Positions 3,071 through 63,379 of a stretch of 64,000 bases of DNA are shown in pieces. Made by a program: the position numbers and the translations under genes. The notes under the pieces were generated by a model. It saw only the letters and a program-made list of their open reading frames with translations, did no database searches and was not told the origin of the DNA. Source of the DNA: Prolixibacteraceae bacterium (GTDB lineage Bacteria; Bacteroidota; Bacteroidia; Bacteroidales; Prolixibacteraceae); the NCBI GenBank assembly GCA_028683385.1, contig JAQUIJ010000016.1:62001-126000 (forward strand), in the 5' to 3' direction. Positions within the stretch are counted from its first letter, which is position 1. Each line of letters begins with the position of its first letter.

Positions 3071-3136
3071 GTGTGAATGATGTAAATATTTTTCAGAATT
3101 GTATAACATTTCAGTTTTCGTCCCTATTTATCTTTC
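3071..3136 (+). promoter_or_regulatory. Regulon element site 1 (no gene close by)
   Basis: Half-sites GAATGATGTAAA (3075-3086) and GAATTGTATAAC (3096-3107) are 21 bp apart, and a -7-like box TATCTTTC lies at 3129-3136. Spacing is the same as at the other sites. No start codon of a convincing gene lies within 50 bp; the next gene begins 327 bp downstream, beyond a repeat element. Confidence 0.75.
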
Positions 3137-3195
3137 AGCAATAAAAAATCTGTTGATGGCATTACAGTTGTGTAAGCCTGGCATTGTCAAGCACC

Positions 3196-3291
3196 GGTCA
3201 CCCTGAACTTGTTTCAGGGTCTCATGCAAGCTGCAGATGCCGAAACCCCGCCTGCTAAGCGAGCGGGCAGGAAGTTCGGCATGACGGTCGG
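3196..3291. repeat. Dispersed hairpin repeat, copy 1
   Basis: A structured non-coding block begins GTCACCCTGAACTT and contains the hairpin CCCTGAA-CTTGT-TTCAGGG. It then has GATGCCGAAAC, a GC-rich CGCC/GGGCG stem and TTCGGCATGACG. Related blocks lie at 17070-17170 and 41150-41201. It resembles a REP- or MITE-like element and has no coding potential I trust. It separates regulon site 1 from the radical SAM gene. Confidence 0.6.
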
Positions 3292-3463
3292 GTAAAAACT
3301 GATTAACACAGCACAAATATGGTTTGATTCATTTGATTTGCCATCTGACAGATTATCATCTGATTGTTTTAAGATTAACCTTCCTCCGAAAAGCCATCCG
3401 TTAAAGGTTACTCCTGAATATTTCCGGCTAAAGCCAATTCTTAAAATTTAAATAAATCGAACG

Positions 3464-4992
3464 ATGAATGTACTATTAGTCTATCCGCAGTACCCGGACT
3501 CATTTTGGAGTTTTAAGAATGTGATGCGTTTTATAGCAAAAAAAGCAACCGTTCCTCCTCTTGGATTGATCACTGTTTCATCCATGTTACCCAAAGACTG
3601 GCATAAAAAACTGGTGGATATGAATGTTTCAACACTTCAGAGCAGTGATCTTGTTTGGGCCGATTATGTTTTCATCAGCGCCATGTACATACAAAAGGAA
3701 TCGGTCGATAAAATCATTGAACTTTGCCTGAAATATGAAGTTAAAATGATTGCTGGCGGCCCTTTGTTTACCCAGGAATACGAAAATTATTCACAAATCG
3801 ACCATTTCATTTTAAATGAAGCCGAGATTACAATGCCACTGTTTTTGAAAGATTTAGCCTCCGGAAAACTGCCGGATAAAATTTACAGGACCGATGAATA
3901 TGCCGATATGAAAACATCGCCGGTCCCAGATTTTGAATTGCTATCCAGAAAAGATTATGTGACCATGAATATCCAGGTTTCGCGTGGATGCCCATTCTCG
4001 TGCGACTTTTGCGAAATAACTTCACTTTTGGGACACAAAGTCAGGATAAAAGCACAAGTCAGATCATAGCCGAACTTGATGCCCTATACCGGTTGAATTG
4101 GCGAGGCCCGATTCTTATTGTTGACGATAACTTTATCGGGAACAAAAACCAGGTCAAGAAAAATTTACTTCCGGCGATGCATGAATGGATGCAAAATCAT
4201 AATAACCCTTTTACATTTAACATTCAATCTTCCATTAACCTGGCCGACGACCCGGAATTGATGTCGCTCATGGCTGAAACGGGCTTTACTTCAACCTTTG
4301 TGGGAATAGAAACACCCGATGAATTATCGCTTTCGGACTGCAACAAAAGTCAGAATGAAAACAGGGATTTACTCGAGAGTGTAAAAAAAATACAGGCAGC
4401 CGGATTACAGGTTACCGCCGGATTTATTGTGGGATTCGACACGGATACCCAAAGCGTTTTTCAAAAACAGATCGATTTTATTCAGAAGAGCGGAATTGTA
4501 TCGGCAATGGTAGGATTATTAAATGCCCCAAAAAATACTGTATTGTACAACCGTCTCAAATCAGAGAATCGTTTAACTAACCAGTCTTCAGGCAACAACA
4601 CCGATTCATCCATGAATTTTATTCCCAAAATGAATCGTGATGAATTATTGGAAGGCTATAAAAAAATCATTCACAATATCTACTCGGCAAAACCCTATTA
4701 CAAACGAATACGTCAGTTTTTACTGAACTACAAAAAAGTTCAGTCCGGACGAAAATCAAGAGGTTTCTCTCTTTTGATCGGATTTCTCAAATCGGTTTTT
4801 GTTATAGGCGTTGTAAATAAGGGCAGAAGCGAATATTGGAAACTAATACTCTGGACACTTTTCAGACGACCAGCACTTATGACTGAGGCGCTGACTTTTA
4901 CGGTTTATGGTTATCATTTTAGAACGGTATACGGTCTTAGAAACAAGATTAAGATAGAGGAATATAACGATAGCTTCGAATACGGAATTTAA
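3464..4992 (+). pseudogene. B12-binding radical SAM protein, interrupted by a frameshift
   Basis: Frame A (3464-4069) encodes a cobalamin-binding-like Rossmann domain (residues 1-150) and the radical SAM cluster motif RGCPFSCDFCEI, which supplies the three Cys for the 4Fe-4S cluster. It then loses register after GHKVRIK. The missing part continues in the next frame from about 4051 as STSQIIAELDAL through VDDNFIGNKN and a DUF4070-like C-terminus to 4992. Joining them needs a -1 shift at the A-run 4048-4051 (ATA AAA GCA read as ATA AAA AGC). The simplest explanation is loss of one A, either a real mutation or a sequencing error. Programmed slippage on A-AAA-G cannot be excluded. The joined product is about 509 residues, near family length. 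Its substrate is unknown. Confidence 0.8.
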
Positions 4993-5105
4993 CGCGGGCA
5001 AGTCCTATTCCAGAAATTTCTGATCCAGATTAACAAACTTCATATTGGATGTAAGATTCATATATTCAAGCATATAAATTTTAATTAATTAAAAATATTT
5101 ACGAA

Positions 5106-5489
5106 ATGAAATCGAAAAAACAATTAGGCATTTGGATGGATCATTCAACTGCCATTTTATTTGAATCAAACGTTAATTCAACAGAAAATAAAATCATTGT
5201 GGCGCAAGTTGGCGAGCAAGATGAAGCTCTTAATACACGTGATGAAACCTTGATACAAAACAAAGAACAAAACGAACTCTCAGGTTTTTTCAATAGACTC
5301 AGCGAAGTAATCATTAATTACGATGAAGTACTTCTGTTTGGGCCTACCAACGCCAAACCCGAATTAGTAAACATACTTAAGTCTGATCACCATTTTGACG
5401 AGATCAAGATTGAAGTAAAACCGGCTGATAAAATGACCGAAAATCAACAGCATGCTTTTGTCAATGAACATTTTAATACTACTGGATAA
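5106..5489 (+). CDS. Conserved hypothetical protein (possible eRF1/VLRF1-like fold)
   Basis: 127 residues, soluble, no signal peptide. It starts KKQLGIWMDHSTAILFE, a strand followed by a polar turn. A long acidic stretch follows, then DEVLLFGPTNAKPELVNIL and a C-terminal IKIEVKPADKMTENQQHAFV. I recognise this as a protein family widespread in Bacteroidota without a defined function. The DEVLLFGPxxAKxEL segment recalls host-attachment or eRF1-domain-like folds, but that is inference. Its stop is followed at once by the start of the PIG-L gene (TAA-ATG, no gap), so the two are surely co-transcribed with the glycosyltransferase that follows. Confidence 0.65.
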   Translation: MKSKKQLGIWMDHSTAILFESNVNSTENKIIVAQVGEQDEALNTRDETLIQNKEQNELSGFFNRLSEVIINYDEVLLFGPTNAKPELVNILKSDHHFDEIKIEVKPADKMTENQQHAFVNEHFNTTG

Positions 5490-8833: not shown

Positions 8834-8899
8834 ATGTGAATGATACAACTTTTTTCGATAATCATGTAATACTTATCGTTATGAATAGATTCAACTTTA
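8834..8899 (+). promoter_or_regulatory. Regulon element site 2
   Basis: Half-sites GAATGATACAAC (8838-8849) and TAATCATGTAAT (8859-8870) are 21 bp apart, with the -7 box CAACTTTA at 8892-8899. The start codon of the proline-rich gene lies 27 bp further on. The half-sites are weaker than consensus, but the spacing is exact. Confidence 0.8.
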
Positions 8900-9372: not shown

Positions 9373-9438
9373 GTGAGAATCATGTAAATTTATTTCAGAA
9401 TTATATAATGATTTTTAAGGTTATATCCTTTATTTTTC
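9373..9438 (+). promoter_or_regulatory. Regulon element site 3
   Basis: Half-sites GAATCATGTAAA (9377-9388) and GAATTATATAAT (9398-9409), 21 bp apart, with -7-like box TATTTTTC at 9431-9438. The CsbD start codon follows 38 bp after the box. Confidence 0.8.
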
Positions 9439-11096: not shown

Positions 11097-11162
11097 GTGT
11101 GAATGATGTAATTCTTAGCTGCAATTGTGTAACACTTTAAGTGGTGAAAGAAAGCAACTTTG
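11097..11162 (+). promoter_or_regulatory. Regulon element site 4
   Basis: Half-sites GAATGATGTAAT (11101-11112) and CAATTGTGTAAC (11122-11133), 21 bp apart, with -7 box CAACTTTG at 11155-11162. This shows that the open frame beginning at 11125 cannot be translated from that codon; the ATG at 11203 is 40 bp downstream of the box. Confidence 0.88.
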
Positions 11163-13177: not shown

Positions 13178-13243
13178 GTGCGAATTATGTAATTTTTTAC
13201 AAAAATTATATAACAATCTAATCCACACAAGATTGTATTTTTA
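13178..13243 (+). promoter_or_regulatory. Regulon element site 5
   Basis: Half-sites GAATTATGTAAT (13182-13193) and AAATTATATAAC (13203-13214), 21 bp apart, with -7-like box TATTTTTA at 13236-13243. The dps start codon follows after 42 bp. Confidence 0.82.
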
Positions 13244-14118: not shown

Positions 14119-17040
14119 GTGAAACCCGAAAAAATAAAATCCTCATTTCCTTCAAATGGAAAAGCTTTAGTTTCGGATACCAAACCGTTTCCCATCGTTG
14201 GTATTGGTGCATCGGCCGGAGGACTTGATGCGTTTGAACAATTTCTTATGAATGTACCAGAAAACTCTGGTATGGCTTATATCATCATACAGCACTTGGA
14301 TCCGACACAAAAAGGAATGTTACCCGAATTACTTCAACGAATTACCAAAATGAAGGTTTTTCAGGTAAAAGACCGAATGGCGGTAAAACCTGACAGTGTG
14401 TATGTGATTCCGCCCAATGCAAGCATGTCAATATTAAGTGGAGTTCTCCACCTTTTTGAACCCCTGGAATCGAGAGGACTACGTTTGCCTATTGATTTTT
14501 TCTTTCGTTCATTGGCTATCGACCAGAAAGAACTTGCGGTTGGTATCATTCTTTCGGGTATGGGCTCAGATGGTAGTATAGGTATCCGGGCCATCAAAGA
14601 AAACAATGGAATTGTAATGGTTCAGGAACCGACCACAGCAACATACAATAGTATGCCGCTAAGTGGCATTGATTCCGTACTGGTTGATGTTGTAGCATCG
14701 CCCCGTGATATGCCACCAAGGCTATCTGAATTTATGAAACAAATTCCTTTCATCAAACAAGATATTGAAATTGAAACTAAAGATCAGAGTTCACTCGAGA
14801 AAATCATAATTCTGCTGCGCGATAATACCGGGAACGACTTTACATTTTATAAGAAAAACACGTTGTATCGGCGAATTGAACGGCGAATGGGCATTCACAA
14901 AATCGACAAAATAGCTTCTTACGTTCACTTTTTAATGTTAAATCCCAAAGAACTGGATATTCTCTTTAAAGAACTTTTGATTGGGGTAACTAACTTTTTT
15001 CGCGATAGCGCTGTTTGGGAAAAGATAAAAGAAAGTGTATTTCCAGATATTTTTACCAATCAAAAAACAGGAACAACATTGCGGGCCTGGATACCCGGTT
15101 GTTCAACCGGCGAAGAAGCATATTCGTTGGCTATTGTGTTTAAAGAAGCACTCGAAAAATTCAGTCCCGATGGAGGCATTTCCTTACAAATATTTGCAAC
15201 TGATTTGGATAACGAGGCTATCGAAACTGCTCGGAAAGGGCTGTTTCCGACAAGCATTGCAGGCGATGTTTCACCCAATCGGCTGAGTCGCTTTTTCATT
15301 TCAACCGACGAAGGCTACCGTGTTAATGCTGAAATAAGAGAGATGGTCGTTTTTGCACAACAAAACATTGTGATGCATCCACCCTTTACCAAAATTGACA
15401 TACTAACTTGCCGCAATTTACTGATATACCTGGAACCAGAATTGCAAAAAAAAATACTTGGACTTTTTTATTATTGTATTAATCCTGATGGAATAATGGT
15501 TTTGGGTAGTTCCGAATCGCTTGGCAAACAGAGCAATTTGTTTATTCCAATAGACCCTAAGCTTAGAATCTTCAGGCGCTCCAACAATGCCCTGAGTCCC
15601 GAATTATTCGATTTTCCATCTTCCTTTTCCCGTTCAAAAATGACAAATATTGAAAAACAAATTCCGGTCAGAGTGACACCAAACATTCAAATGCTTGCCG
15701 ATCAGTTGCTGTTGCAGCACTTTTCGCCTCCCGGTGTTCTGGTGAACCCCGATGGCGATATTATTTACATCAGCGGACGTACCGGAAAATATCTGGAACC
15801 GGCAGTCGGCAAAGCGAATCTGAATATTTTTGCCATGCTGCGCGAAGGTTTGGTTCACGAATTTAACATTGCTTTCCGCAAAACCATTTTAACAAAAGGA
15901 ACTGAAATTTTGCACAACATCAAAATTGGTTCAAACGATTCGTTACTAACCGTTAATGTTAAAATTCAATGGATAGAAAAACCTGAGGCCCTGAAAAACA
16001 AGGTTATGATCATTTTTACTGATGTGCCTACAATTAACCAGCCAATAAAAAGATCAAAAAAAGGGGAAATAGCCATCGATAGCGTTAGACATTCGAAATT
16101 GGAAGAAGAGTTGCAGCGTACCCGTGAAGAGATGCAGAGCACTCTCGAAGAAATGCAAACTTCGCAGGAAGAACTAAAGTCAACAAACGAAGAATTGCAA
16201 TCAACCAATGAAGAGCTGCAATCGACCAACGAAGAATTGACCACTTCAAAAGAAGAAATGCAAAGCCTGAATGAAGAACTTCAAACTGTAAATGTAGAAT
16301 TGCAGTCGAAAGTTGACGAATTTTCAAGAGTGAACAACGACATGAAAAACCTGCTCAACAGCACCGATATTGCAACTTTATTTCTGGATAAAGAATTAAA
16401 TATTCGACGCTATACCAACCAGACTACCAAAATTTTTAAACTTATCAAAAGCGACATCGGACGACCCTTTACCGATCAGGCATCAGACCTTGATTACCCC
16501 GAATTGGTTGATGATGCCCTTGAAGTATTAAGAACACTCGTTTTTATACAAAAGCAAATATCAACCAAAGACGGGCGCTGGTTTTCTATTCGCATTATGC
16601 CATACCGCACATTCGACGACCGAATTGACGGCCTGGTCATTACGTTCTTCAACATGTCGAGCCAGAAGCAAGTTGAAGAGCAATTAAATGAATCAAAACA
16701 GTTGAATCGTCTGCTATTTAATTCATCATCAGATAAGATCATTAAATTGTCGGGCGAACTAAAGGTTGTTGAATTTAATACTGAGGCTGAGAAATTTTTC
16801 GATAAAAAACGAGAAGATATACTAGACAGGAACTTCATTCAATCCTTTGTTCCTGAACCGGAGCATAAAAGAATTGAAAAGGAGTTAAAGAAATTGTTTT
16901 CCGAATCATTGGATAGCAAATTCAAGTTAAAAGTTATAGCTGCAGCAGATCAAATCCAGGAGATTGAATGGTCTGTAAATGTTATTTGCACCGATCAGAA
17001 AATGCCAGTTGGATTACTATTAATTTCAAAAAATCACTAA
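14119..17040 (+). CDS. CheB-CheR-PAS hybrid signalling protein
   Basis: 973 residues, GTG start. Order: CheB methylesterase domain (about 24-205) with GIGASAGG, IIQHLDP and SGMGSDGS around the Ser-His-Asp triad; CheR methyltransferase (about 220-480) with TNFFRDS, IPGCSTGEEAYSLA for SAM binding, FATDLD and CRNLLIYL. A linker follows, then a long heptad coiled coil (about 659-739) built from repeated EELQSTNEELQ units, a PAS_10-type domain (about 745-855) and a final PAS-like domain (about 860-970). No kinase domain follows, unlike many relatives. It is cytosolic. Such hybrids usually feed a stress or biofilm response rather than classical chemotaxis. A PAS protein and an AraC regulator follow on the same strand. 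Confidence 0.92.
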   Translation: MKPEKIKSSFPSNGKALVSDTKPFPIVGIGASAGGLDAFEQFLMNVPENSGMAYIIIQHLDPTQKGMLPELLQRITKMKVFQVKDRMAVKPDSVYVIPPNASMSILSGVLHLFEPLESRGLRLPIDFFFRSLAIDQKELAVGIILSGMGSDGSIGIRAIKENNGIVMVQEPTTATYNSMPLSGIDSVLVDVVASPRDMPPRLSEFMKQIPFIKQDIEIETKDQSSLEKIIILLRDNTGNDFTFYKKNTLYRRIERRMGIHKIDKIASYVHFLMLNPKELDILFKELLIGVTNFFRDSAVWEKIKESVFPDIFTNQKTGTTLRAWIPGCSTGEEAYSLAIVFKEALEKFSPDGGISLQIFATDLDNEAIETARKGLFPTSIAGDVSPNRLSRFFISTDEGYRVNAEIREMVVFAQQNIVMHPPFTKIDILTCRNLLIYLEPELQKKILGLFYYCINPDGIMVLGSSESLGKQSNLFIPIDPKLRIFRRSNNALSPELFDFPSSFSRSKMTNIEKQIPVRVTPNIQMLADQLLLQHFSPPGVLVNPDGDIIYISGRTGKYLEPAVGKANLNIFAMLREGLVHEFNIAFRKTILTKGTEILHNIKIGSNDSLLTVNVKIQWIEKPEALKNKVMIIFTDVPTINQPIKRSKKGEIAIDSVRHSKLEEELQRTREEMQSTLEEMQTSQEELKSTNEELQSTNEELQSTNEELTTSKEEMQSLNEELQTVNVELQSKVDEFSRVNNDMKNLLNSTDIATLFLDKELNIRRYTNQTTKIFKLIKSDIGRPFTDQASDLDYPELVDDALEVLRTLVFIQKQISTKDGRWFSIRIMPYRTFDDRIDGLVITFFNMSSQKQVEEQLNESKQLNRLLFNSSSDKIIKLSGELKVVEFNTEAEKFFDKKREDILDRNFIQSFVPEPEHKRIEKELKKLFSESLDSKFKLKVIAAADQIQEIEWSVNVICTDQKMPVGLLLISKNH

Positions 17041-17341
17041 TGGCAAGCCAACTTATAATTGTCTGGCAAGTCACCCTGAACTTCCCGCCCGCTCGCTTGT
17101 CAGGCTGGGTTTTAGGGTCACTTCAGCAAAGAAATGCCGAAACAAGCCTTCGAGTTCAGAATGTCATTACGTCAGGTTCGTTGACCCGACAATAAGTTGT
17201 AAAACCAATAAGAGATGTTGAATACATAACTTCTCTTGAAGAAACTGTTTGAATTTCATGAATTTGACCTTTTGCTTTCTGTTTTAATTTTAAACAGTTA
17301 TTGAAGTAACACTGATTACCAAAACATTAAATACCAAAGTG
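17041..17341. repeat. Gap holding dispersed hairpin repeat, copy 2
   Basis: Between 17070 and 17170 the sequence repeats the pattern of 3196-3291: GTCACCCTGAACTT, a CCCGCC/GCTCGC segment, ATGCCGAAAC and a closing GTCATTACG. The sequence after 17180 is AT-rich with no recognised element. Short frames here are not credible. Confidence 0.55.
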
Positions 17342-17893
17342 ATGCATAACGAAGAAATGGATTACACTGACGCCAAACAGTTACGTTCAAAAGCCGAAGA
17401 GCAACTGAAAAAGAAAGACAAAAGAGTAGAAGATGTGGTAGCCGAAATTGATTCGAAGAAATTACTACACGAACTTCAGGTACACCAGATTGAACTGGAA
17501 ATGCAAAACGAAGAGTTGCGACTAGCCTATGTTACGGCCGAAACAGCCCTTAAAAAATACACCATGCTCTACGATCTTGCTCCTATAGGCTATTTTACTC
17601 TTGATAACAACGCCAACATCAATGAGCTGAACTTCACTGGCGCCGACATGCTTGGAGAGAAACGTTTCAGCCTAATAAACAGCAATTTAAAATTGTTTAT
17701 TAACAACGACTTTCTGCCTGTTTTCAACGATTTTATCAGGAAGGTTTATTCACGCCATGGAAAAGAATCGTGTATAGTGATGTTAGAATCCGATAAAGGT
17801 TCTACATGCAAAATCTATATGGAAGGTATTGTTAGCGGTGAAGATCAAAAATGTCTTTTGTCGGTAATTGATATTTCGAAACTCAAAAGCTAA
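17342..17893 (+). CDS. PAS-domain signalling protein, stand-alone
   Basis: 183 residues from ATG 17342 (a GTG one codon earlier is possible). Residues 10-75 are helical, with the motif LLHELQVHQIELEMQNEELR that commonly leads into a PAS domain in CheB/CheR-linked kinases. Residues 78-180 are the PAS domain, YDLAPIGYFTLDNNANINELNFTGADMLG, ending LLSVIDISKLKS. There is no kinase, receiver or output domain, so it is either a signalling adaptor or the N-terminal remnant of a kinase. The stop is clean and the downstream DNA shows no kinase relics. It lies 300 bp after the CheB/CheR gene and about 100 bp before the AraC gene. Confidence 0.82.
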   Translation: MHNEEMDYTDAKQLRSKAEEQLKKKDKRVEDVVAEIDSKKLLHELQVHQIELEMQNEELRLAYVTAETALKKYTMLYDLAPIGYFTLDNNANINELNFTGADMLGEKRFSLINSNLKLFINNDFLPVFNDFIRKVYSRHGKESCIVMLESDKGSTCKIYMEGIVSGEDQKCLLSVIDISKLKS

Positions 17894-17989: not shown

Positions 17990-18556
17990 TTGAAGCTTTA
18001 TATCAAAAATATGGTCAGCAAACGCTGTAAGATAATCGTAAAGTCAGAACTTGAGACTTTGGGATTGCATTGCTCTGCCATTGATTTGTGTGAAGTTGAA
18101 ATCGTGGATGACATTTCTGAAGATAAAAGGCTTAAACTTGATAAAAAGCTCCGTGAATCAGGGTTCGAATTAATTTCAGAGAGAAACATAATATTAACCG
18201 AAAAAATTAAAACAATTATCATCGAATTAGTTCATTACAACGAAAATCAATTGGTCATAAATCTATCAGACTATTTAAGTATCAAACTAAAATACAGTTA
18301 CACCTATTTAGCAAACATCTATTCAAAAAATCAGGGCGAAACCATTGAGCATTTTTTCATCACGAACAAAATTGAAAAGGTAAAAGAATTACTTATTTAC
18401 GAAGATCTTAATATTACTGAGATCGCTGATAAATTGCACTTCAGCAGTGTAGCCCATCTGTCAAATCTATTTAAAAAAATCACAGGAATAACTCCTTCGC
18501 AATACAAGCAACTTTGTTTTTTTGACCAAAAACCTCCGAAAAAAAAAAACCAATAA
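17990..18556 (+). CDS. AraC-family regulator with degenerate HMA-like N-terminus
   Basis: 188 residues, TTG start chosen because KLYIKNMVSKRCK is the conserved opening of this family; ATG 18011 would remove its first strand. Residues 1-62 follow the ferredoxin-like pattern of a heavy-metal-associated domain (LYIKNMVxxxC, LGLHCSAIDLCEVEIVDD, LRESGFEL). The first Cys of the CxxC metal site is Ser, so only one Cys remains. Residues about 85-185 are an AraC-type double helix-turn-helix with KVKELLIYEDLNITEIADKLHFSSVAHLSNLFKKITGITPSQYKQ. It is the only recognisable DNA-binding transcription factor in the window apart from the cold-shock protein. AraC proteins bind direct repeats about 21 bp apart, which is the geometry of the regulon element; the link is inference. 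Confidence 0.88.
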   Translation: MKLYIKNMVSKRCKIIVKSELETLGLHCSAIDLCEVEIVDDISEDKRLKLDKKLRESGFELISERNIILTEKIKTIIIELVHYNENQLVINLSDYLSIKLKYSYTYLANIYSKNQGETIEHFFITNKIEKVKELLIYEDLNITEIADKLHFSSVAHLSNLFKKITGITPSQYKQLCFFDQKPPKKKNQ

Positions 18557-20604: not shown

Positions 20605-20670
20605 GTGTGAATGATGTAATTTTTATTCAAAATTCTGTAACCCATTTGCGACTAAAGGTTCTCAACTTAG
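20605..20670 (+). promoter_or_regulatory. Regulon element site 6
   Basis: Half-sites GAATGATGTAAT (20609-20620) and AAATTCTGTAAC (20630-20641), 21 bp apart, with -7-like box CAACTTAG at 20663-20670. The bacterioferritin start codon follows after 34 bp. Confidence 0.83.
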
Positions 20671-24210: not shown

Positions 24211-24231
24211 GTCGGTCAAACAGAGTTCAAT

Positions 24232-24296
24232 GTGTGAATGATGTAACTTATTTCCAGAATAGTATAACAAGTTGAAAGGCGATACGAGTACTTTTA
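24232..24296 (+). promoter_or_regulatory. Regulon element site 7 (1 bp shorter)
   Basis: Half-sites GAATGATGTAAC (24236-24247) and GAATAGTATAAC (24257-24268), 21 bp apart, with -7-like box TACTTTTA at 24289-24296. This is the only copy whose box is shifted by one base. The start codon of the small membrane protein follows after 30 bp. Confidence 0.82.
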
Positions 24297-27898: not shown

Positions 27899-27964
27899 GT
27901 GTGAATGATGTAACTCTTTTCGAAAGTTGTATAACACATTCTGGATGGATTTAAGTCTTCTTTA
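27899..27964 (+). promoter_or_regulatory. Regulon element site 8
   Basis: Half-sites GAATGATGTAAC (27903-27914) and AAGTTGTATAAC (27924-27935), 21 bp apart, with -7-like box CTTCTTTA at 27957-27964. The DUF3108 start codon follows after 33 bp. Confidence 0.82.
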
Positions 27965-40455: not shown

Positions 40456-40521
40456 GTGTGAATTATATAACTTTTTCTAAAAATTGTATAATACAAATCG
40501 GGTTCTTTTATCGCACATTTA
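40456..40521 (+). promoter_or_regulatory. Regulon element site 9
   Basis: Half-sites GAATTATATAAC (40460-40471) and AAATTGTATAAT (40481-40492), 21 bp apart, with -7-like box CACATTTA at 40514-40521. This overlaps the open frame from 40458, showing that its true start is the ATG at 40551, 29 bp after the box. Confidence 0.82.
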
Positions 40522-48727: not shown

Positions 48728-48793
48728 CTGTGAATCATGTAACTCTTTCCTGAAATTGTGTAAGACATTTGGGTGGCAGAAAGCTCATTTTTG
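48728..48793 (+). promoter_or_regulatory. Regulon element site 10
   Basis: Half-sites GAATCATGTAAC (48732-48743) and AAATTGTGTAAG (48753-48764), 21 bp apart, with -7 box CATTTTTG at 48786-48793. It begins 7 bp after the tamL stop. The marC-family start at 48823 is 29 bp beyond the box, which rules out the upstream start at 48769. Confidence 0.87.
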
Positions 48794-49457: not shown

Positions 49458-49523
49458 ATGCGATTCGAGCAACTTTTTACATAAATTGTGTAAACCATTC
49501 AAGGATAAACGAGGTCATCTTTG
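49458..49523 (+). promoter_or_regulatory. Regulon element site 11 (weak first half-site)
   Basis: The first half-site is degenerate, GATTCGAGCAAC (49462-49473). The second is good, AAATTGTGTAAA (49483-49494), 21 bp away, and the -7 box CATCTTTG is at 49516-49523. The L,D-transpeptidase start follows after 31 bp. The fixed geometry supports it despite the weak left half. Confidence 0.72.
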
Positions 49524-49554
49524 TTACAATATAATATTCTGAAATATACACTCA

Positions 49555-51501: not shown

Positions 51502-51582
51502 TCGGGTAAAGGTACTTTAATATTCATGAAGCGCAAACCGAATGATTTTCAGAATACCCAAAAGAAAAGTATTTTAATTAAA

Positions 51583-51626: not shown

Positions 51627-51654
51627 ACGAATATTTATTTTTATTAAAATTATC

Positions 51655-51846: not shown

Positions 51847-51875
51847 TTTATCCCTATACAAGACATTTATTATTT

Positions 51876-51914
51876 AAAAAGCCGTTCCAATTCAATTTGG
51901 AACGGCTTTTTTTA
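51876..51914. terminator. Bidirectional rho-independent terminator
   Basis: AAAAAGCCGTTCCAA (51876-51890) pairs with TTGGAACGGCTTTTT (51897-51911), continuing into more T. T-tracts on both strands serve both the cold-shock gene and the convergent yihY-like gene, whose stop codon starts right at the edge. Confidence 0.92.
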
Positions 51915-52856: not shown

Positions 52857-52878
52857 AGTTATGGGATATTTACTATTA

Positions 52879-54720: not shown

Positions 54721-54777
54721 TTTTAGTGATTGTGAAGCTTTGCATAGGTTTAAAGAAAAATTTCATGTTTTTCTTTA

Positions 54778-54845
54778 ACTCACCCCGTCGAACCTCTCCA
54801 GGCATAGAGAAGGAGAAAGCCCGATGAATCGGGCTTGGGGTGAGT
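54778..54845. repeat. Nested hairpin between mlaD and the Omp85-like gene
   Basis: Outer arms ACTCACCCC (54778-54786) and GGGGTGAGT (54837-54845) enclose an inner hairpin AGCCCGAT-GA-ATCGGGCT. It may terminate or stabilise the end of the Mla message, or be a dispersed repeat of the type used in many Bacteroidota. Confidence 0.6.
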
Positions 54846-54861
54846 CAATTTATTTTGAATT

Positions 54862-55566: not shown

Positions 55567-55584
55567 GATACTATGTTTTTATAT

Positions 55585-57209: not shown

Positions 57210-58200
57210 TCGTTATCTGTTTTTTATTTTCAGGCAAACTGCTTTCTTCTGTTTTTGCCTTCTTTTTGAAATATCCTCTCAGTAAAAAATTGTGCTGTGC
57301 GGCTTCCAAATCTTCATCAAGTTTTGCTGAACTGGTTTCCAGATTTTTAATCGTTTCTTTTAGTCGGGTGCCTGATTCATCATCGTGTAACAAAACACCA
57401 ATTGCTGAATTCGGATTGGCACTTGCCTTTTTGAGATTGGCGATGAACACCGTTGCAGTATCAGCCATTTGTTGCAATTGCAAAACCGAAGCTTTCACCG
57501 ATTTAAAAACCACAGTATCAGTTGTCAATTCGTTGGCAAGCGTGCCTTTTTTATTCAATCCTGAACTGAATTCGGACAACGAAGCCAGCATTTGTTCTGC
57601 TTTTGCAGATGCCTTATGTAGCGAAGCTATAGTTGCATTGATATTGGTATAGATTAAACTATCATTGAGCAATTTACCTAAAGTGCCTTCGCCCGCAGCT
57701 AATTTTTTAGTGATGATTTTTACATCGTTTGTTATGGCTAAAATGTTTTTATTGTTTTCCTGTGCAGTGTTAATCATATCCTCCGACGTGAAAGTTTTTT
57801 CCACCAACAAAGTATCACCATCCTCTACTTCAGCAAATCCATCTGTTCCGCCATAGATCACCAGAATTTTATTTCCGATCAGGCCATCACTGCTGATTTT
57901 GACTTTAGCATCTTTCCGAATGTACTTTTTCGCTTTTATGGCCACATTCATGTCCACTTCCACCTGCGATTTTCCATGAAAATTCAGACTGTTTACGGTT
58001 CCAATTTTAACGCCCGAGTACCAAATGTTATTTCCAGGCTGCAACCCGCTTATGTCATCAAAAAGTGAAACCAATTGCATTTTCCAGTTAAAGGTTTCGC
58101 GGAGATTTCCTACGATAAGAACTCCTGCCAGCAGAAATAACAGTCCTACTATTACAAAAACTCCTACAATTACTGCCCGTTTATTTGGTGATTCATTCAT
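57196..58200 (-). CDS. mlaD: MlaD-like MCE protein (first set)
   Basis: 334 residues, longer than the second-set MlaD because of an extended helical C-terminal part (about residues 120-330). An anchor (VIVGVFVIVGLLFLLAGVLIVG) precedes the MCE domain with LFDDISGLQPGNNIWYSGVKIGTVNSL and LIGNKILVIYGG. The C-terminus has AQHNFLLRGYFKKKAK like its paralogue. It should form a periplasmic ring or tube over MlaE. It starts 3 bp after the first-set MlaF and overlaps the next MlaE by 14 bp. Confidence 0.91.
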   Translation of the reverse strand: MNESPNKRAVIVGVFVIVGLLFLLAGVLIVGNLRETFNWKMQLVSLFDDISGLQPGNNIWYSGVKIGTVNSLNFHGKSQVEVDMNVAIKAKKYIRKDAKVKISSDGLIGNKILVIYGGTDGFAEVEDGDTLLVEKTFTSEDMINTAQENNKNILAITNDVKIITKKLAAGEGTLGKLLNDSLIYTNINATIASLHKASAKAEQMLASLSEFSSGLNKKGTLANELTTDTVVFKSVKASVLQLQQMADTATVFIANLKKASANPNSAIGVLLHDDESGTRLKETIKNLETSSAKLDEDLEAAQHNFLLRGYFKKKAKTEESSLPENKKQITNDTN

Positions 58201-58203
58201 GAT

Positions 58204-58980
58204 TTATTGTATAAAATTGTAATTAAAGAAACCCTTTACCTGTTCGTTATCGGTTGCGAAAACCTCCTCAAACGTTCCCACTTTTAAAAACTTACCTTTG
58301 TGCAGCATGGCAATCCGGTTTCCGGTACTTTTGGCACAGGTCAGGTCGTGTGTAATGATCACCGAACTGGTGTTGTATTTTTGCTGAACTTCATTGATCA
58401 ATTCTATAATTTCAGCGCTTGTAATCGGGTCTAATCCTGAAGTTGGCTCATCGTACAACATGATTTCAGGTTTAAGAATAAGCGTGCGCGCGATGCCTAT
58501 TCGTTTGCGTTGTCCGCCCGACAAATCGGAAGGCATTTGGTTGCTTTTATTAGCCAGGCCAACTGAATCCAGAACATCGTTAACGGCATAATCGACCTCA
58601 CTTTTAGACAGATTCTTCACATTCATGGTTAATGGGAAAGCAAGATTTTGATAGACGTTCATGCTGTCGTACAATGCACTGTTCTGAAACGAAAATCCAA
58701 TCCGGATACGCAATGCATCCAGTTCTTTCCCGGCTAACTTGTTCACATGCTCTCCCAACACTATTACTTCTCCACGATCTGGTTTAAGCAGTCCGACAAT
58801 AATTTTGATTAAAACAGATTTTCCCGTACCCGACTTTCCAAGCACAGCTATATTTTCGCCTTTAAAAAGATTAAAATCAATCCCTTTCAGAACCTGTAAA
58901 TCGTCGAACGACTTGTACAATCCTGAAATTGAAATGACTTGTTCTTCTTTGTTGATGATATGTTGTTTCAAGTTTTCCAT
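58204..58980 (-). CDS. mlaF: MlaF-like ABC ATPase (first set)
   Basis: 258 residues with Walker A GKSGTGKSVLIK, signature LSGGQRKRIGIAR and Walker B IMLYDEPTSGLDP, plus IITHDLT. The region SFQNSALYDSMNVYQNLAFPL aligns with the same insertion in the second-set ATPase. It differs from that paralogue over most of the chain, so the duplication is not recent. It drives the first MlaE permease. It starts 3 bp after MlaE in the operon. Confidence 0.94.
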   Translation of the reverse strand: MENLKQHIINKEEQVISISGLYKSFDDLQVLKGIDFNLFKGENIAVLGKSGTGKSVLIKIIVGLLKPDRGEVIVLGEHVNKLAGKELDALRIRIGFSFQNSALYDSMNVYQNLAFPLTMNVKNLSKSEVDYAVNDVLDSVGLANKSNQMPSDLSGGQRKRIGIARTLILKPEIMLYDEPTSGLDPITSAEIIELINEVQQKYNTSSVIITHDLTCAKSTGNRIAMLHKGKFLKVGTFEEVFATDNEQVKGFFNYNFIQ

Positions 58981-58983
58981 GAC

Positions 58984-59778
58984 TTAATAAAATCTGATCC
59001 AATTGGCAATTTGAACGATAATAACTTCCTCAATAAATATCAGGAACATGGCCAATACAACAGCCTGATTCGCAGCCTTACCAACACCACGTGTTCCCTG
59101 TGTGGCATTGTATCCTTTGTATGTACCAACAATACCGATTGTAAATCCGTAAACTAAAGTTTTGGTTACTGATGTGATTATATCCAGAAAGTTGATTGTT
59201 TTAAACGCACTTTGATAGAAGCTGATCATACTGCTGGTTTCTTCAGCATGAACATTTAAATAAGAACCATACAAGGCAACGAAACTGCAATACAAGGCGA
59301 GTATTGGAATGGTAATGGTGGTAGCCAAAACGCGTGTTACAACCAGATATTTAAACGGATTAATGGCAGAAACCTCCATGGCATCAATCTGTTCGGTTAC
59401 TTTCATCGAACCTAGTTCTGCACCAATCCCCGACCCTATTTTTCCGGCACAAATGAGTGCAGTGACCAATGGTCCTAAAGCCTTTATAATGGCAATGCCA
59501 ATTAACGATGGAAGCCACGACGTAGCTCCAAAATCTTCAAGCGAAGGACGTGACTGTTTGGTAAAAACAATGCCGACAATAAAACCGGTGAGGGTGATCA
59601 ATGCAAGGGATTTCAATCCCACCTCGAAACACTGATTAATCAGTTCGCGCAGATGAAAAGGAGGCTTAAATGCTTCTTTAAAAAAGAGAGTTGTAAACCG
59701 GTAAGCCTTGTGTACACCAATAAAATAGTCGTCAAGACCTTTTGAAAATACGTATTTTCTAACTTTTGAATTTAGCAT
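58984..59778 (-). CDS. mlaE: MlaE-like permease (first set)
   Basis: 264 residues, first gene of the operon. The family core ALGPLVTALICAGKIGSGIGAELGSMKVTEQIDAMEVSAINPFKYLVVTR is conserved, with about five membrane segments and the N-terminal FGATSWLPSL loop. It is an inner-membrane permease for phospholipid exchange between membranes; the direction is debated. The start codon is 26 bp after the -7 box of regulon site 12, so the whole six-gene operon is a candidate regulon member. Confidence 0.94.
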   Translation of the reverse strand: MLNSKVRKYVFSKGLDDYFIGVHKAYRFTTLFFKEAFKPPFHLRELINQCFEVGLKSLALITLTGFIVGIVFTKQSRPSLEDFGATSWLPSLIGIAIIKALGPLVTALICAGKIGSGIGAELGSMKVTEQIDAMEVSAINPFKYLVVTRVLATTITIPILALYCSFVALYGSYLNVHAEETSSMISFYQSAFKTINFLDIITSVTKTLVYGFTIGIVGTYKGYNATQGTRGVGKAANQAVVLAMFLIFIEEVIIVQIANWIRFY

Positions 59779-59804
59779 GTAAGGTTTGTGTTATAGCCAT
59801 TTGG

Positions 59805-59870
59805 TAAAGATGAATATTCCTCAATCTAATTGTGTTACATAACTTTTCAAATAAGTTACATGATTCACAC
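59805..59870 (-). promoter_or_regulatory. Regulon element site 12 (minus strand)
   Basis: Read on the minus strand: half-sites GAATCATGTAAC (59855-59866) and AAGTTATGTAAC (59834-59845), 21 bp apart, with -7-like box CATCTTTA at 59805-59812. The mlaE start at 59778 follows after 26 bp. Confidence 0.87.
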
Positions 59871-59881
59871 TTTTGCTTTAC

Positions 59882-59917
59882 AAAAAAAAAGAAGACCGTT
59901 CCGGTTGGGGAACGGCC
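59882..59917 (-). terminator. Rho-independent terminator of the OmpA-barrel operon
   Basis: On the minus strand a GGCCGTTCC / GGAACGGTC stem is followed by TTCTTTTTTTTT. It ends the two-gene unit that terminates at 59954, just before the Mla operon promoter. Confidence 0.88.
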
Positions 59918-59953
59918 ATTCTTAAACTAACCTCACTTAAAACCAAACCCAAA

Positions 59954-60625
59954 CTAAAACCTATATCCGAGCGACAGGCCAAAGCCTGTATTTTTTGTTG
60001 ATGACTTATCATCCGATAATATCTTGTATTCAGGATTGATATTAAGCATCCCAAATTCGGTATCGAGCTGTAAAAACAATCCACTTGCCATTTCGTACCC
60101 GACGAAAATATTGGCACCTGCATCAAAAGCTTTGTAATACGGAGTCAATATGTTATCACCAGTATCTACAACACTCTTGAATTTTACATCCCGATCAAGA
60201 GTTACAGAACCGCTTACTGTTTTTACATTTCCGCTAATTCCATAACTAACATAAGGTCCAAATCCCAGCATAAAAAATCCTTTACCCAACGAGGCTTTGT
60301 AAACCATGTTCAATGGCACTTCAATATAATTGAGTTTTGTTGTGCTTGTTATTGAACCTGAGGTGTTCTTTGCTCCTTTGGTTGAATACATGATTCCAGG
60401 TTGCAAATAAAACTCCGGAGCAATGGGAATCTGAACATTAATTCCACCATGAAAACCCAGTAGCATATCATTTTCAAGTTTATCACCACTCAAATCTTTT
60501 CCGTTCAGGTTCTGAAAATTTAAACCACCCAATATTCCTAATGATACTTTTGACTTTTCCTGTGCATTCGCAAATGATGCTGAGAGCAAAAGAATTAATG
60601 CGATTGATACTATTTTGTTTTTCAT
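59954..60625 (-). CDS. Outer-membrane beta-barrel protein (PorT/OMP_b-brl type)
   Basis: 223 residues, signal peptide (IVSIALILLLSASFANAQ). Eight amphipathic strands of the OMP_b-brl_2 type (SLGILGGLNFQNLNG, GFHGGINVQIPIAPEFYLQPGIMYSTKG, FFMLGFGPYVSYGISG, FGLSLGYRF) end in a C-terminal Phe. It is an outer-membrane protein of unknown cargo. It lies 46 bp after the OmpA-type lipoprotein gene, and a terminator follows, so the two form an operon behind regulon site 13. Confidence 0.83.
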   Translation of the reverse strand: MKNKIVSIALILLLSASFANAQEKSKVSLGILGGLNFQNLNGKDLSGDKLENDMLLGFHGGINVQIPIAPEFYLQPGIMYSTKGAKNTSGSITSTTKLNYIEVPLNMVYKASLGKGFFMLGFGPYVSYGISGNVKTVSGSVTLDRDVKFKSVVDTGDNILTPYYKAFDAGANIFVGYEMASGLFLQLDTEFGMLNINPEYKILSDDKSSTKNTGFGLSLGYRF

Positions 60626-60671
60626 TTTTCTAATTTAGAAGCTACATGTATAAATGTGAAATTGCATAGAA

Positions 60672-61343
60672 TTAATTTGCTGTTTCCTTTGCTGATTCAG
60701 TCTTCATCTTTTCATTTGCAGTGATTAGAAATTCAACCCTGCGATTTTGTGAACGGCCATTTTCTGTATTATTATCATACTTTGGCATATTTTCGCCAAA
60801 TCCTTTTGTCCGTATTCTGGTGTTCGAAATACCATTGTTGTACAAATATTCTGAAACGGCACCAGCCCGGGATTCAGACAAGCTTTGATTGTACGATTGG
60901 CTTCCTTTGCTATCAGTATGTCCCTGCACTTCAATATCAGTATCAGGATAAACGTTCAGAATTTTGACCAGTTTATCCAGATTTACTTTAGCATCAGCCG
61001 AAAGATTTGAGCTATCAAATCCGAACAAAACATTGCTGCTAAATTCTACAACGATACCCTCGCCTACCCGTTCAACTTTAGCATCAGGAACTGTCTTTGC
61101 AATTTCCGCAGCCTGCTTGTCCATTTTATGACCAATCACTGCACCAGTTGCTCCTCCAACAGCTGCTCCAATAATAGCGCCCAAACCGGTATTTCCGGCA
61201 ACCTTACCAATAATTGCGCCCATAGCACCCCCACCAACAGCTCCTATAGCTCCTCCTTTTTGAGTCTTGTTTAATGAAGCACAGCTCGTAAACAACATTG
61301 TAGCGCTTAGTACCACAACCATACTAATTCTTATTCTTTTCAT
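60672..61343 (-). CDS. OmpA-family lipoprotein with glycine-zipper domain
   Basis: 223 residues from ATG 61343 (MKRIRISMVVVLSATMLFTSC, lipobox LFTSC). The frame is open to 61430, but that adds 29 residues before the signal and is doubtful. A glycine-zipper region (GGAIGAVGGGAMGAIIGKVAG ... IIGAAVGGATGAVIGHKMD, about 35-85) is followed by an OmpA C-terminal domain. That domain has FGFDSSNLSADAKVNLDKLVKIL, VQGHTDSKGSQSYNQSLSESRAGAV and FGENMPKYDN, the peptidoglycan-binding fold. It probably ties the outer membrane to the wall. Regulon site 13 precedes it. Confidence 0.9.
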   Translation of the reverse strand: MKRIRISMVVVLSATMLFTSCASLNKTQKGGAIGAVGGGAMGAIIGKVAGNTGLGAIIGAAVGGATGAVIGHKMDKQAAEIAKTVPDAKVERVGEGIVVEFSSNVLFGFDSSNLSADAKVNLDKLVKILNVYPDTDIEVQGHTDSKGSQSYNQSLSESRAGAVSEYLYNNGISNTRIRTKGFGENMPKYDNNTENGRSQNRRVEFLITANEKMKTESAKETAN

Positions 61344-61449
61344 AAAAAATACATTAAAGGTTTCTGAATTGAAATTCGTTTGCCAGCAATTCTGTTTTGA
61401 TTTTTTAACCGTTGTCTGACTGGCATACAACCATTCAATTCTATCGGTG

Positions 61450-61515
61450 TAAAGATCGGCTCTTATATGTATTCAGGAGTTACATAACTTTTGCAAATAG
61501 TTACATGATTCACAC
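61450..61515 (-). promoter_or_regulatory. Regulon element site 13 (minus strand)
   Basis: On the minus strand: half-sites GAATCATGTAAC (61500-61511) and AAGTTATGTAAC (61479-61490), 21 bp apart, with -7-like box GATCTTTA at 61450-61457. The chosen start at 61343 is 106 bp away; the ATG at 61430 would be only 19 bp away, so either the leader is long or the start call needs revision. Confidence 0.85.
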
Positions 61516-61528
61516 ATCTCTGAGGAAA

Positions 61529-61563
61529 TAGTGAGCGGGTGACTTCGAGTCACCCGCTCACTA
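61529..61563. repeat. Perfect 16-bp palindrome between divergent regulon promoters
   Basis: TAGTGAGCGGGTGACT (61529-61544) and its exact inverse (61548-61563) are separated by TCG. It lies in the 58-bp space between site 13 (minus) and site 14 (plus). No T-tract flanks it, so it is not a standard terminator. Confidence 0.85.
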
Positions 61564-61573
61564 AATTAGGAAA

Positions 61574-61639
61574 GTGTGAATAATGTAACTCTTCTTTGGA
61601 ATTGTGTAACACTTTCGACAGTCGAACTCATCACCTTTG
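61574..61639 (+). promoter_or_regulatory. Regulon element site 14
   Basis: Half-sites GAATAATGTAAC (61578-61589) and GAATTGTGTAAC (61599-61610) are nearly identical, 21 bp apart, with -7 box CACCTTTG at 61632-61639. The csbD start at 61676 follows after 36 bp; the open frame from 61637 overlaps the box and is excluded. Confidence 0.9.
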
Positions 61640-61675
61640 TTAAGTGAAAATTCTTTCACCGCTAGAACTACGAAA

Positions 61676-61861
61676 ATGAATACAACAGAATTTAAAGGGA
61701 ATTGGGACGAGCAAAAAGGTAAGCTCAAACAAAAATTTGCCATGCTAACCGATAATGATGTATTGCTGCTTGATGGTAAAAAAGAGGAAATGCTTGGAAG
61801 ACTTCAGGTTAAACTCGGAAAAACAAAGGAAGAACTGCAAAAAATAATTGCGGCACTTTAA
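61676..61861 (+). CDS. CsbD-family stress protein (second copy)
   Basis: 61 residues from ATG 61676 (MNTTEFKGNWDEQKGKLKQKF). The family core NWDEQKGKLKQKFAMLTDNDVLLLDGKKEEMLGRLQVKLGKTKEEL is canonical, more so than the copy at 9477. CsbD proteins accumulate in general stress but lack an assigned molecular function. It leads an operon with the OmpA-TSP3 gene 30 bp downstream, behind regulon site 14 and divergent from the OmpA lipoprotein operon. Confidence 0.93.
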   Translation: MNTTEFKGNWDEQKGKLKQKFAMLTDNDVLLLDGKKEEMLGRLQVKLGKTKEELQKIIAAL

Positions 61862-61891
61862 CAACAACAATAAAAACCAAAAATTAAAAAT

Positions 61892-63226
61892 ATGAAAAAA
61901 CTACTTCTACTTTCATTGGCTATTGCTTTTACATTTAGTATAAACGCTCAAACAATTGACAAAAAATGGGGCATCGGACTTGGTATCGGAGGATATGGAA
62001 CTCTAAATAACGGAGGAATCGGCTTCATGCCCGAATTGTATTTAGGCAGATATTTAAGTCCCCGACTGGATATCATTTTAAAAGGAGACATGGGGCTTTT
62101 CAATTCCAATCTGAAAAACAACCTTGATTTGGTCAATCCATTCTTAAATTTAAGGTTCAAATTAAGCGACGAAAATAAGAATTTAAGACCTTACCTTTTT
62201 GCAGGGCCAGGTTATTTGGCTGACAATGGTGTCTCGGCTGTAAACTTTGATCTCGGTCTTGGTGCAAAATACTACATGAGCCAAAACACTGCATTTTACA
62301 TGGAAGCTGGGTACATACACGGATTAGAATCAACCACCTATAAAGGCATTACCGGAAGAGAAAGCTTTTGGAAAGCTACTGTTGGGGTAGAATTTGACTT
62401 CGGAAAAACCAAAGATTCCGATATGGATGGTGTTTCGGACAATAAAGACAAATGCCCTGATACTCCTGCCGGAGTCGCAGTTGACAAAAACGGTTGTCCG
62501 ATTGATACCGATGGCGATGGTGTAGCCGATTACCTGGACGATTGTCCAACAGTTGCCGGATTAACTTCGCTGAAAGGTTGTCCTGATGCTGACGGAGATG
62601 GTGTGGCCGACAAAAATGACAATTGTCCCGATACGCCCAAAGGATGGAAAGTTGATGTCAAAGGATGTCCGCTTGATCAGGATAATGACGGTGTGGCCGA
62701 TGCAATAGACAAATGCCCTGACACTCCCGAGGGAATTGATGTCGACAAAAGTGGTTGCGCTGTTGATACCGACGGTGATGGTGTTGCCGATTACCTGGAC
62801 GGATGTCCAACAGTTGCCGGTACTAAAGAAAATAAAGGTTGTCCTGAAATCGAAACTACCGAAGTAATTTTGTTAACTCCGGATATGCTCGTTGAACCAG
62901 TCTATTTTGGATACGACAAGGCCAACTATATTTCAGGAGAAAAAAAGAAAATTGACAAGTTGGTTAAAATCCTGAAATCCGATGATAACCTGAAAGTAAA
63001 TTTAACCGGAAATGCAGATAGCAAAGGTACAGCCGAATACAATATGGCACTGACAGAAAAACGAATCGATTCGGTTGTCAAAACGATCCAATCAAGTGGG
63101 ATACCTGAAAATCGCATTTCGAAAGAAAAGGCACTGGGTGAAACAAAACCTGCCGCCACAAACGATACTCCAGCGGGTCGTGCGTTAAACCGCAGAGTTA
63201 CATTTGAAGTAATTAAAACAAAATAA
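61892..63226 (+). CDS. OmpA-family protein with thrombospondin type 3 repeats
   Basis: 444 residues with signal peptide (LLLLSLAIAFTFSINAQ). A beta-barrel-like N-terminus (about 25-170, GIGLGIGGYGTLNNGGIGFMPELYLG) is followed by five Asp-rich calcium-binding repeats (DSDMDGVSDNKDKCPDTPAG, DTDGDGVADYLDDCPTVAG and similar, about 175-315). An OmpA domain ends the chain, with FGYDKANYISGEKKKIDKLVKIL and LTGNADSKGTAEYNMALTEKR. This is the common Bacteroidota outer-membrane OmpA form linking barrel to peptidoglycan. It lies 30 bp after csbD in one operon and is followed by a clear terminator. Confidence 0.92.
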   Translation: MKKLLLLSLAIAFTFSINAQTIDKKWGIGLGIGGYGTLNNGGIGFMPELYLGRYLSPRLDIILKGDMGLFNSNLKNNLDLVNPFLNLRFKLSDENKNLRPYLFAGPGYLADNGVSAVNFDLGLGAKYYMSQNTAFYMEAGYIHGLESTTYKGITGRESFWKATVGVEFDFGKTKDSDMDGVSDNKDKCPDTPAGVAVDKNGCPIDTDGDGVADYLDDCPTVAGLTSLKGCPDADGDGVADKNDNCPDTPKGWKVDVKGCPLDQDNDGVADAIDKCPDTPEGIDVDKSGCAVDTDGDGVADYLDGCPTVAGTKENKGCPEIETTEVILLTPDMLVEPVYFGYDKANYISGEKKKIDKLVKILKSDDNLKVNLTGNADSKGTAEYNMALTEKRIDSVVKTIQSSGIPENRISKEKALGETKPAATNDTPAGRALNRRVTFEVIKTK

Positions 63227-63247
63227 TAAGTCAATCAATTCAGTATT

Positions 63248-63288
63248 AGAGACTATGCCAATAATTAGGCATGGTCTCTTTTTTTTTC
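63248..63288 (+). terminator. Rho-independent terminator after the OmpA-TSP3 gene
   Basis: AGAGACTATGCC (63248-63259) pairs with GGCATGGTCTCT (63268-63279) with one mismatch, followed by TTTTTTTTTC. Confidence 0.93.
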
Positions 63289-63313
63289 TAATTTATTCTG
63301 GAAATTTCTAAAT

Positions 63314-63379
63314 GTGTGAATCATGTAAGTCTGCATCTGAATTGTGTAACACTTACAAATTAGAAAGGATACAACTTTG
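63314..63379 (+). promoter_or_regulatory. Regulon element site 15
   Basis: Half-sites GAATCATGTAAG (63318-63329) and GAATTGTGTAAC (63339-63350), 21 bp apart, with -7 box CAACTTTG at 63372-63379. The lipoprotein start at 63423 follows after 43 bp. Confidence 0.88.

Follow-up and report, generated by a model that had tools for sequence, protein, structure and literature searches.

The promoter element and the genes beside it

The window considered here, a stretch of 64,000 nucleotides from the genome of a Prolixibacteraceae bacterium (contig 9, JAQUIJ010000016.1, positions 62,001-126,000), carries fifteen copies of a 65-bp element in which two direct half-sites precede a -7 promoter box, together with a gene at 17990-18556 for a small protein of the AraC family. 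A sequence-only reading of the window had proposed that the element defines a regulon. That proposal is supported, and the copies appear best read as one promoter element of fixed geometry controlling a regulon, because the element lies upstream of genes, is absent from chance controls, is clustered and keeps the same geometry in many Bacteroidota. What the earlier reading missed is the AraC-family gene in the same window, which encodes the probable regulator.

All fifteen claimed copies are present when the window is scanned with a matrix built from them, and they score 36.3-54.3 bits (own matrix, first 42 positions). The next scores in the 64 kb are 18.1 bits, on the opposite strand of the site at 40457, and then 9.9 bits; the maximum in five simulated windows (order-3 Markov) was 11.7 bits. 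The matrix was built from the same 15 sites, and the independent tests are the searches of the genome, of its relatives, of the class and of AraC loci. The plus-strand coordinates of the sequence-only reading fall one base before the first T of TGTGAAT, and its two minus-strand coordinates give the lower-numbered ends of the copies at 59805-59869 and 61450-61514. The copies, the genes that follow them and the candidate regulator with its neighbours are collected in Table 1.

Table 1. Copies of the element in the window, with the genes that follow them, and the candidate regulator with neighbouring genes (ORF, open reading frame)
Feature	Position	Strand	Score (bits)	Following gene or description
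Element 1	3072..3136	+	45.6	next large ORF B12-binding/radical-SAM-type (3464), 327 bp off
Element 2	8835..8899	+	42.0	short gene at 8927, no Pfam match
Element 3	9374..9438	+	39.4	60-aa gene at 9477 (weak likeness to NCBIfam PRK10428, below cut-off), then PAS histidine kinase 9646
Element 4	11098..11162	+	47.9	small gene at 11203, no Pfam match
Element 5	13179..13243	+	42.9	ferritin-like gene 13286, presumably Dps-type
Element 6	20606..20670	+	48.5	ferritin-like gene 20705
Element 7	24233..24296	+	45.7	one base shorter to box; gene 24327
Element 8	27900..27964	+	54.3	DUF3108 gene 27998
Element 9	40457..40521	+	43.3	HEAT-repeat gene (ATG 40551)
Element 10	48729..48793	+	51.5	MarC gene 48823
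Element 11	49459..49523	+	36.3	L,D-transpeptidase gene 49555
Element 12	59805..59869	-	47.5	MlaE permease gene 58984-59778 and genes after it
Element 13	61450..61514	-	44.4	OmpA/Gly-zipper gene 60672-61430
Element 14	61575..61639	+	50.6	CsbD-like gene 61676
Element 15	63315..63379	+	45.1	Ig-like-domain protein gene 63423
CheB-CheR-PAS signalling protein	14119..17040	+		upstream of AraC gene (Pfam)
184-aa protein	17339..17893	+		adjoins AraC gene; no Pfam match; similar neighbour in several relatives (by eye)
Candidate regulator	17990..18556	+		188 aa; HMA-like domain and AraC helix-turn-helix (Pfam, AlphaFold2, Foldseek)

Anatomy of the element

The first half-site has the consensus AA-tg-TGTGAATsATGTAAC and runs on into T-rich sequence (TGTGAATsATGTAACTnTTT in the window copies), and the second, with the consensus AAAATTGTGTAACACttT, follows 21 bp after it. 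The 21-bp period claimed for the half-sites is found in 15/15 copies when the second block is measured against the first. About 15 variable bases separate the second half-site from a -7 box, (t)AnCTTTG, and the AnCTTTG box ends 38 positions past the second GAAT-type block; as the sequence-only reading had it, alignment gives an identical distance to the box in 14 of the 15 copies, with one base fewer in the copy at 24233, which is 64 bp long. The half-sites being direct and not inverted, a palindrome of the CRP/FNR type was rejected. A wider view of the geometry comes from 141 sites of at least 25 bits in loci fetched by the AraC protein. In these the half-sites are conserved across some 17-20 bp, the start of xAnnTTTG falls on position 57 in 75 sites, on 56 in five and on 58 in two, and TTT occupies positions 61-63 in 114.

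The paper PMC2483708 gives the Bacteroidota promoter consensus as TAnnTTTG at -7 and TTTG at -33, and describes the -33 motif as not essential for expression but needed for full activity. The YAnCTTTG box to which the sequence-only reading had drawn attention is present; set beside that consensus, it is the ordinary -7 box of the phylum, so that the new part of the element is the pair of upstream half-sites. TTTG stands in the -33 region of only 11 of the 141 sites, that is, the -33 box is mostly missing. The core promoter is thus an ordinary one without its -33 half, the double half-site sitting where an activator that touches polymerase would sit.

Distribution in the genome and position relative to genes

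The 5.9-Mb genome was searched with a sequence-only profile of the 15 copies, 150 of 4170 first-look candidates being scored, and has at least 30 matches at E<=0.001. Of these 30, 26 lie within 93 kb of contig 9 (38,492-131,535), with one each on contigs 2, 26, 34 and 51. The cluster extends beyond the window on both sides and comes within 1 kb of the contig end (132,257).

In 20 of 29 sites of this genome the first start codon accepted by script follows the box at 26-43 bp. For the window, where such a spacing had been reported for 13 copies, scripted first starts give 12 of 15, and the figure of 13 is regained with ATG 11203 for the element at 11098, for which the script chose a GTG upstream of that ATG. 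The exceptions are the element at 3072 (327 bp) and that at 61514, which has a TTG at 19 bp; the ATG used in the orthologue of genome G012 is ~105 bp away. The sequence-only reading had also placed every copy between genes, and had named as a refuting outcome an element as common inside genes as between them. Among the 29 genomic sites (>=19 bits, in the stretches retrieved), 27 lie outside crude ORFs of at least 100 aa and two inside, so the regulon reading was not refuted. Both internal sites were judged to be artefacts of ORF calling: that at window 63315 reflects an upstream alternative start, and that on contig 26 a longer ORF covering a CsbD-like gene.

Two further features of the region concern its history. 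Window positions 49471-63237 have 88-92% DNA identity to G012, other aligned parts of the region having 66-82%, which suggests that this part of the island may have been exchanged recently between species. To the left of the island, contig 9 at 22000-37000 (L072) contains by eye a relaxase-like ORF, type I restriction genes and an ArdC-like protein, genes that look like a mobile-element remnant.

The candidate regulator

The AraC protein of the window matches HTH_18 at 54.5 bits (cut-off 33.6) and HTH_AraC at 49.2 bits (cut-off 26.6). Its AlphaFold2 model, a confident one (predicted local distance difference test, pLDDT, 89.1), combines an N-terminal beta-alpha-beta-beta-alpha-beta domain with a helical AraC domain. 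In Foldseek comparisons the C-terminal part matches the DNA-binding domains of AraT, YesN and MarA, and a stretch of 66-68 columns, taken to be the N-terminal domain, matches GolB (4y2i; E 0.15, target template-modelling (TM) score 0.72) and Atx1 (2xmv; E 0.22, target TM 0.70) with weak E-values. In two homologues the N-terminal domain is hit weakly by CopZ models, with scores under the cut-offs; Pfam HMA gives no match in the window protein at E<=0.01, and a weak one, below cut-off, in the distant homologue L111. The second Cys of the CxxC pair is invariant in 41 proteins; at the first position 54 of 80 loci have Cys and the other 26 Ser. The window protein has Ser there, and for this reason metal binding by that protein is doubtful.

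The genome contains several copies of this AraC subfamily, one of them in the window. Distant homologues L107 and L108 adjoin heavy-metal P-type ATPases, L110 lies near an RND transporter, L111 adjoins a heavy-metal-binding-domain protein, and a plasmid homologue of Runella slithyformis adjoins a multicopper oxidase and RND efflux genes; L109 adjoins an FGE-sulfatase-type gene, not a metal gene. To judge by gene neighbourhood, an origin of the subfamily among metal regulators is plausible.

Elsewhere in the window, at 22313-22675, a small protein looks, by eye, like the C-terminal portion of a G280 response regulator (L252:17798-18457), and the two could possibly represent an unnamed signalling domain.

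Linkage of the element to AraC genes

Eighty loci were fetched by the AraC protein alone, with no use of the motif, and 67 of them contain 169 sites of at least 20 bits, 154 outside crude ORFs of at least 80 aa and 15 inside. Control scans of these loci gave no sites, either on reversed sequences or with five column-shuffled matrices. The interval from -15 to +110 bases around the AraC stop codon contains a site of at least 20 bits in 39 of the 80 loci; for other plus-strand ORFs of the same loci the count is 32 of 485. When sites above 10 bits are considered, 28 of the 80 loci have an element whose start precedes the AraC stop codon by exactly two bases, and the stop codon then lies inside the first half-site, as TGA (as in TG-TGA-AT) in 21 of them. 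The same layout is seen in loci of Flavobacterium, Dysgonomonas, Marinifilum and Mariniphaga and in the first contig-9 paralogue of the source genome. Six of the 80 loci have a site upstream of AraC that reaches 20 bits.

In the source genome elements adjoin both AraC homologues found on contig 9 at 37,938 and 39,210, and on contig 2 the single match found at E<=0.001 precedes an AraC paralogue, from which a 39-aa ORF separates it. Element-like copies also stand just after the AraC gene in four of five distant homologues (L107, 28.5 bits; L108, 26.6; L110, 17.9; L111, 14.2), none being found at the L109 locus; such copies point to the AraC protein as the co-evolving partner of the element. Three of eight plasmid homologues were examined for sites: that of Runella rosea has a clear site of 34.1 bits and a weak one of 19.1, Runella slithyformis has a weak site (13.1 bits) upstream of the gene before AraC, and the Spirosoma linguale locus has none.

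As an observation on gene organization, the overlap between the AraC gene and the promoter at the stop codon is kept across genera (loci L170-L249).

Co-occurrence across genomes

Among 61 relatives, the source genome included, all 26 with an AraC match at E<=1e-50 have the element, whereas 7 of the 35 others do (Fisher p 3.6e-11, a value that overstates independence since the genomes are related). Element counts are lower bounds, with up to 83 candidates scored per genome for the relatives and up to 12 for the class; the AraC search of the class scored up to eight per genome. In the class sample the element occurs in at least 115 of 395 genomes, again including the source genome. It is present in 54 of 66 genomes with an AraC match at E<=1e-50; as the matches weaken, the following bins give 22 of 61, 18 of 57 and 3 of 20, and the genomes without AraC 18 of 191.

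Two genomes that have the element and no close AraC match can be accounted for. G280 has the response regulator and kinase found after AraC in its sister genome G160, the kinase being cut by the contig end on the AraC side. A contig of G385 carries the same response regulator from base 804 onward, preceded by an ORF that is open to the contig end. AraC is absent from both because the assembly breaks fall where it would follow. The contig ends lie within the PAS kinase gene in G280 (L301) and, it seems, in G385 (L314). In the same kinase gene of G280 (L301) there are repeated units of the ANKELAFQNxEKEKRA type, with a similar stretch in G160 (L309).

Regulon content

Among the products of first genes after the sites of the source genome are CsbD-like proteins (one above and one below the Pfam cut-off, and two further ones by weak match or by eye), DUF5670, two ferritin-like proteins, a heavy-metal-binding-domain protein, MarC, an L,D-transpeptidase, the MlaE permease with the genes following it, two OmpA-type proteins, DUF3108, DUF4382, a HEAT-repeat protein and a patatin. 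Also encoded in this region are a universal stress protein, a transaldolase, a phosphoketolase, an AI-2E-type transporter, DUF1003, and a PAS kinase with a response regulator.

In the 80 AraC loci 99 first genes were collected (sites >=25 bits, start within 160 bp). Among the 25 listed of their 68 families are cupin (9), the AraC domain (7, six of which are the linked AraC genes themselves), DUF5670 (6), radical SAM (5), CsbD (4), ice-binding-like (4), MlaE (3), YceI (3) and DUF6600 (3). A comparison set of 90 other ORFs from the same loci gave cupin 2, MlaE 2, universal stress protein 2, ice-binding 1 and the AraC domain 2, the last not a fair contrast since nine AraC ORFs had been dropped from the random draw of 99; CsbD and DUF5670 are not among the 25 of 113 families listed for this set. 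The regulated genes look like a stress and envelope set, their types being ones that we take to be associated with general and envelope stress.

The radical-SAM-type gene at window 3464-4992 shows up as two overlapping ORFs (201 and 334 aa), and some relatives have one ORF of more than 400 aa; the gene may be frameshifted.

Proposed mechanism and alternatives

It is probable that the elements are activator-dependent promoters bound by the small HMA-like AraC activator, which would run a stress and envelope regulon. The ordinary Bacteroidota sigma factor and RNA polymerase would read the AnnTTTG -7 box, and in place of the absent -33 box there would be the two direct half-sites, 21 bp or two DNA turns apart and centred near -39 and -60 as counted from the -7 box. 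Two copies of the activator would bind them side by side and recruit polymerase. This picture of two monomers on one face of the DNA, activating a promoter that lacks a -33 box, is drawn from what is known of AraC: activators of this type bind tandem direct repeats (AraC I1-I2), and a monomer with two helix-turn-helix motifs is expected to occupy a half-site of ~17-20 bp, as is seen here. The genes controlled would be of general-stress and envelope type, largely gathered in one region. The element with its geometry, its placement before genes, its clustering and its tie to AraC genes of this subfamily are shown by the data; binding and activation by the protein, the paralogue responsible and a stress, metal or thiol input are inferred. 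The input might be the thiol or metal state of the N-terminal domain, or might come through the adjoining CheB-CheR-PAS protein and PAS kinase; some AraC paralogues might be regulated by their own element, and particular paralogues might serve particular sites.

Several observations weigh against this assignment. Twelve of the 66 class genomes with a close AraC protein had no element match among the 12 candidates scored per genome, and 13 of the 80 AraC loci have no site of at least 20 bits, although nine of these, with five of the seven Chryseobacterium loci among them, show a weaker site near the stop codon (9.7-18.3 bits). Within 1.5 kb of the AraC gene of the window there is no element that reaches 14 bits, as is the case for 7 of 30 AraC loci, the window copy included. 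Seven of the 28 overlapping stop codons are TAA and not TGA. When the 22 element genomes without close AraC were searched again, none had a homologue at E<=1e-10, and of ten searched with a profile, six matched it in part, over the DNA-binding portion of AraC alone; with contig breaks accounting for two, 20 of the 22 are unexplained. Among these 20 are G332 (at least 12 sites), G266 (nine sites; 70% complete), G193 and G228 (six each) and G186 and G418 (four each), and incomplete bins, a second regulator or a wrong assignment may be the reason. Finally, linkage would also arise were AraC only a target.

The last point leads to an alternative in which an unlinked regulator, common to all genomes with the element, binds it, and AraC is an ancient conserved target. 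AraC-negative genomes with 4-12 sites, the window AraC gene without a nearby element and the six loci with a site upstream of AraC, as for a target, would all fit. However, the 28 elements that overlap the AraC stop codon are aimed at the next gene rather than at AraC, and the weaker element-like copies (14.2-28.5 bits) after four of five distant AraC homologues argue for AraC as the partner. Inspection by eye of the element regions of G280, G332, G193, G228, G266, G418, G156 and G065 revealed no common DNA-binding protein. An unlinked regulator is considered unlikely.

Still less probable is a response regulator of the LytTR type that binds the repeats, with the AraC gene merely one of its targets. 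LytTR proteins also use direct repeats, ~21 bp apart and with half-sites of 9 bp, so the period is the same, but the conserved half-sites of 17-20 bp exceed that length. The AraC-negative genome G266 has a stand-alone LytTR gene (L261:7220-7737) directly after an element, the only such case among the loci scanned; in G332, also AraC-negative, a LytTR-like gene lies ~2.6 kb from a site; and there are 15 LytTR matches in the source genome. None of the 15, however, is on contig 9, home of 26 of the 30 sites, and 38 loci fetched around LytTR genes (those of G266 and G385 not included) contain no site of at least 20 bits. The LytTR protein of G266 has matches better than E 1e-30 only in G266 and G385 of 45 genomes, and weaker ones in 42 of the 45, with or without elements. 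Gene location, neighbourhood and the 45-genome search led to the rejection of LytTR as general regulator.

A constitutive promoter, either extended or read by an extracytoplasmic function (ECF) sigma factor without any activator, is very improbable: the good -7 box at a fixed distance would suit it, but two long half-sites, two turns apart and upstream of the -35 region, are unexpected for a sigma factor, and the small number of matches at E<=0.001 in the 5.9-Mb genome (30, among the 150 of 4170 candidates scored) and the mostly missing -33 box also speak against it. The ECF-sigma promoter was rejected from the geometry of the element. A dispersed repeat spread by duplication or transposition, which the clustering within 93 kb and the mobile-element-type genes beside the region (by eye) might recall, is scarcely credible and was likewise rejected from the geometry, since likeness is limited to motif columns while spacer bases vary, the box keeps its 26-43 bp from the start in 20 of 29 sites, and the geometry is identical in loci of many genera.

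Relation to known systems and implications

The proposed activator resembles known AraC activators in its HTH_18/HTH_AraC domain, its MarA/AraT/YesN-like fold and the direct half-sites upstream of a core promoter. Unlike AraC, it has a copper-chaperone-like N-terminal domain and not a cupin-type ligand domain, and the system differs from AraC systems in its stress and envelope regulon and in the -33 box being mostly absent. By weak matches the N-terminal fold is like that of the HMA metallochaperones CopZ, Atx1 and GolB, but here the domain is fused to a DNA-binding domain, and in the window protein the first Cys of the CxxC pair is Ser. SigB, RpoS and EcfG govern general stress regulons, and the set described here is similar in the control of CsbD-like, ferritin-like and envelope genes and in the universal stress protein of the region; it differs in that there is no sign of an alternative sigma factor and that the core promoter has the ordinary Bacteroidota -7 box.

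The sequence-only reading knew of no published description of the element, and none of the element or of the AraC regulator was found in open-access full text, subscription papers not being covered. Since AraC activators acting at tandem direct repeats are already known, this is not a new kind of system; what is new is the unusual sensor-domain fusion and a regulon without earlier assignment.

A bolder proposal, which we put forward tentatively and with rather more doubt than belief, is that of a widespread Bacteroidota stress and envelope regulon run, with no alternative sigma factor, by an activator of the HMA-AraC type that arose from heavy-metal regulators. The first metal-binding Cys would have been lost in one branch and the gene duplicated, which made a stress switch of a copper switch, and the regulator and the genes tagged by the element would travel together as an island.

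We know of no established general-stress regulator in Bacteroidota. The present work pairs one regulator subfamily with one promoter element in a concrete and testable way. If the pairing is true, a master regulator of stress and envelope genes in Bacteroidota would be named, the DUF5670, DUF3108, DUF6600, DUF4382 and CsbD-like genes would be assigned to one response, and a metal-chaperone-like fold would have been recruited to the control of a stress regulon.

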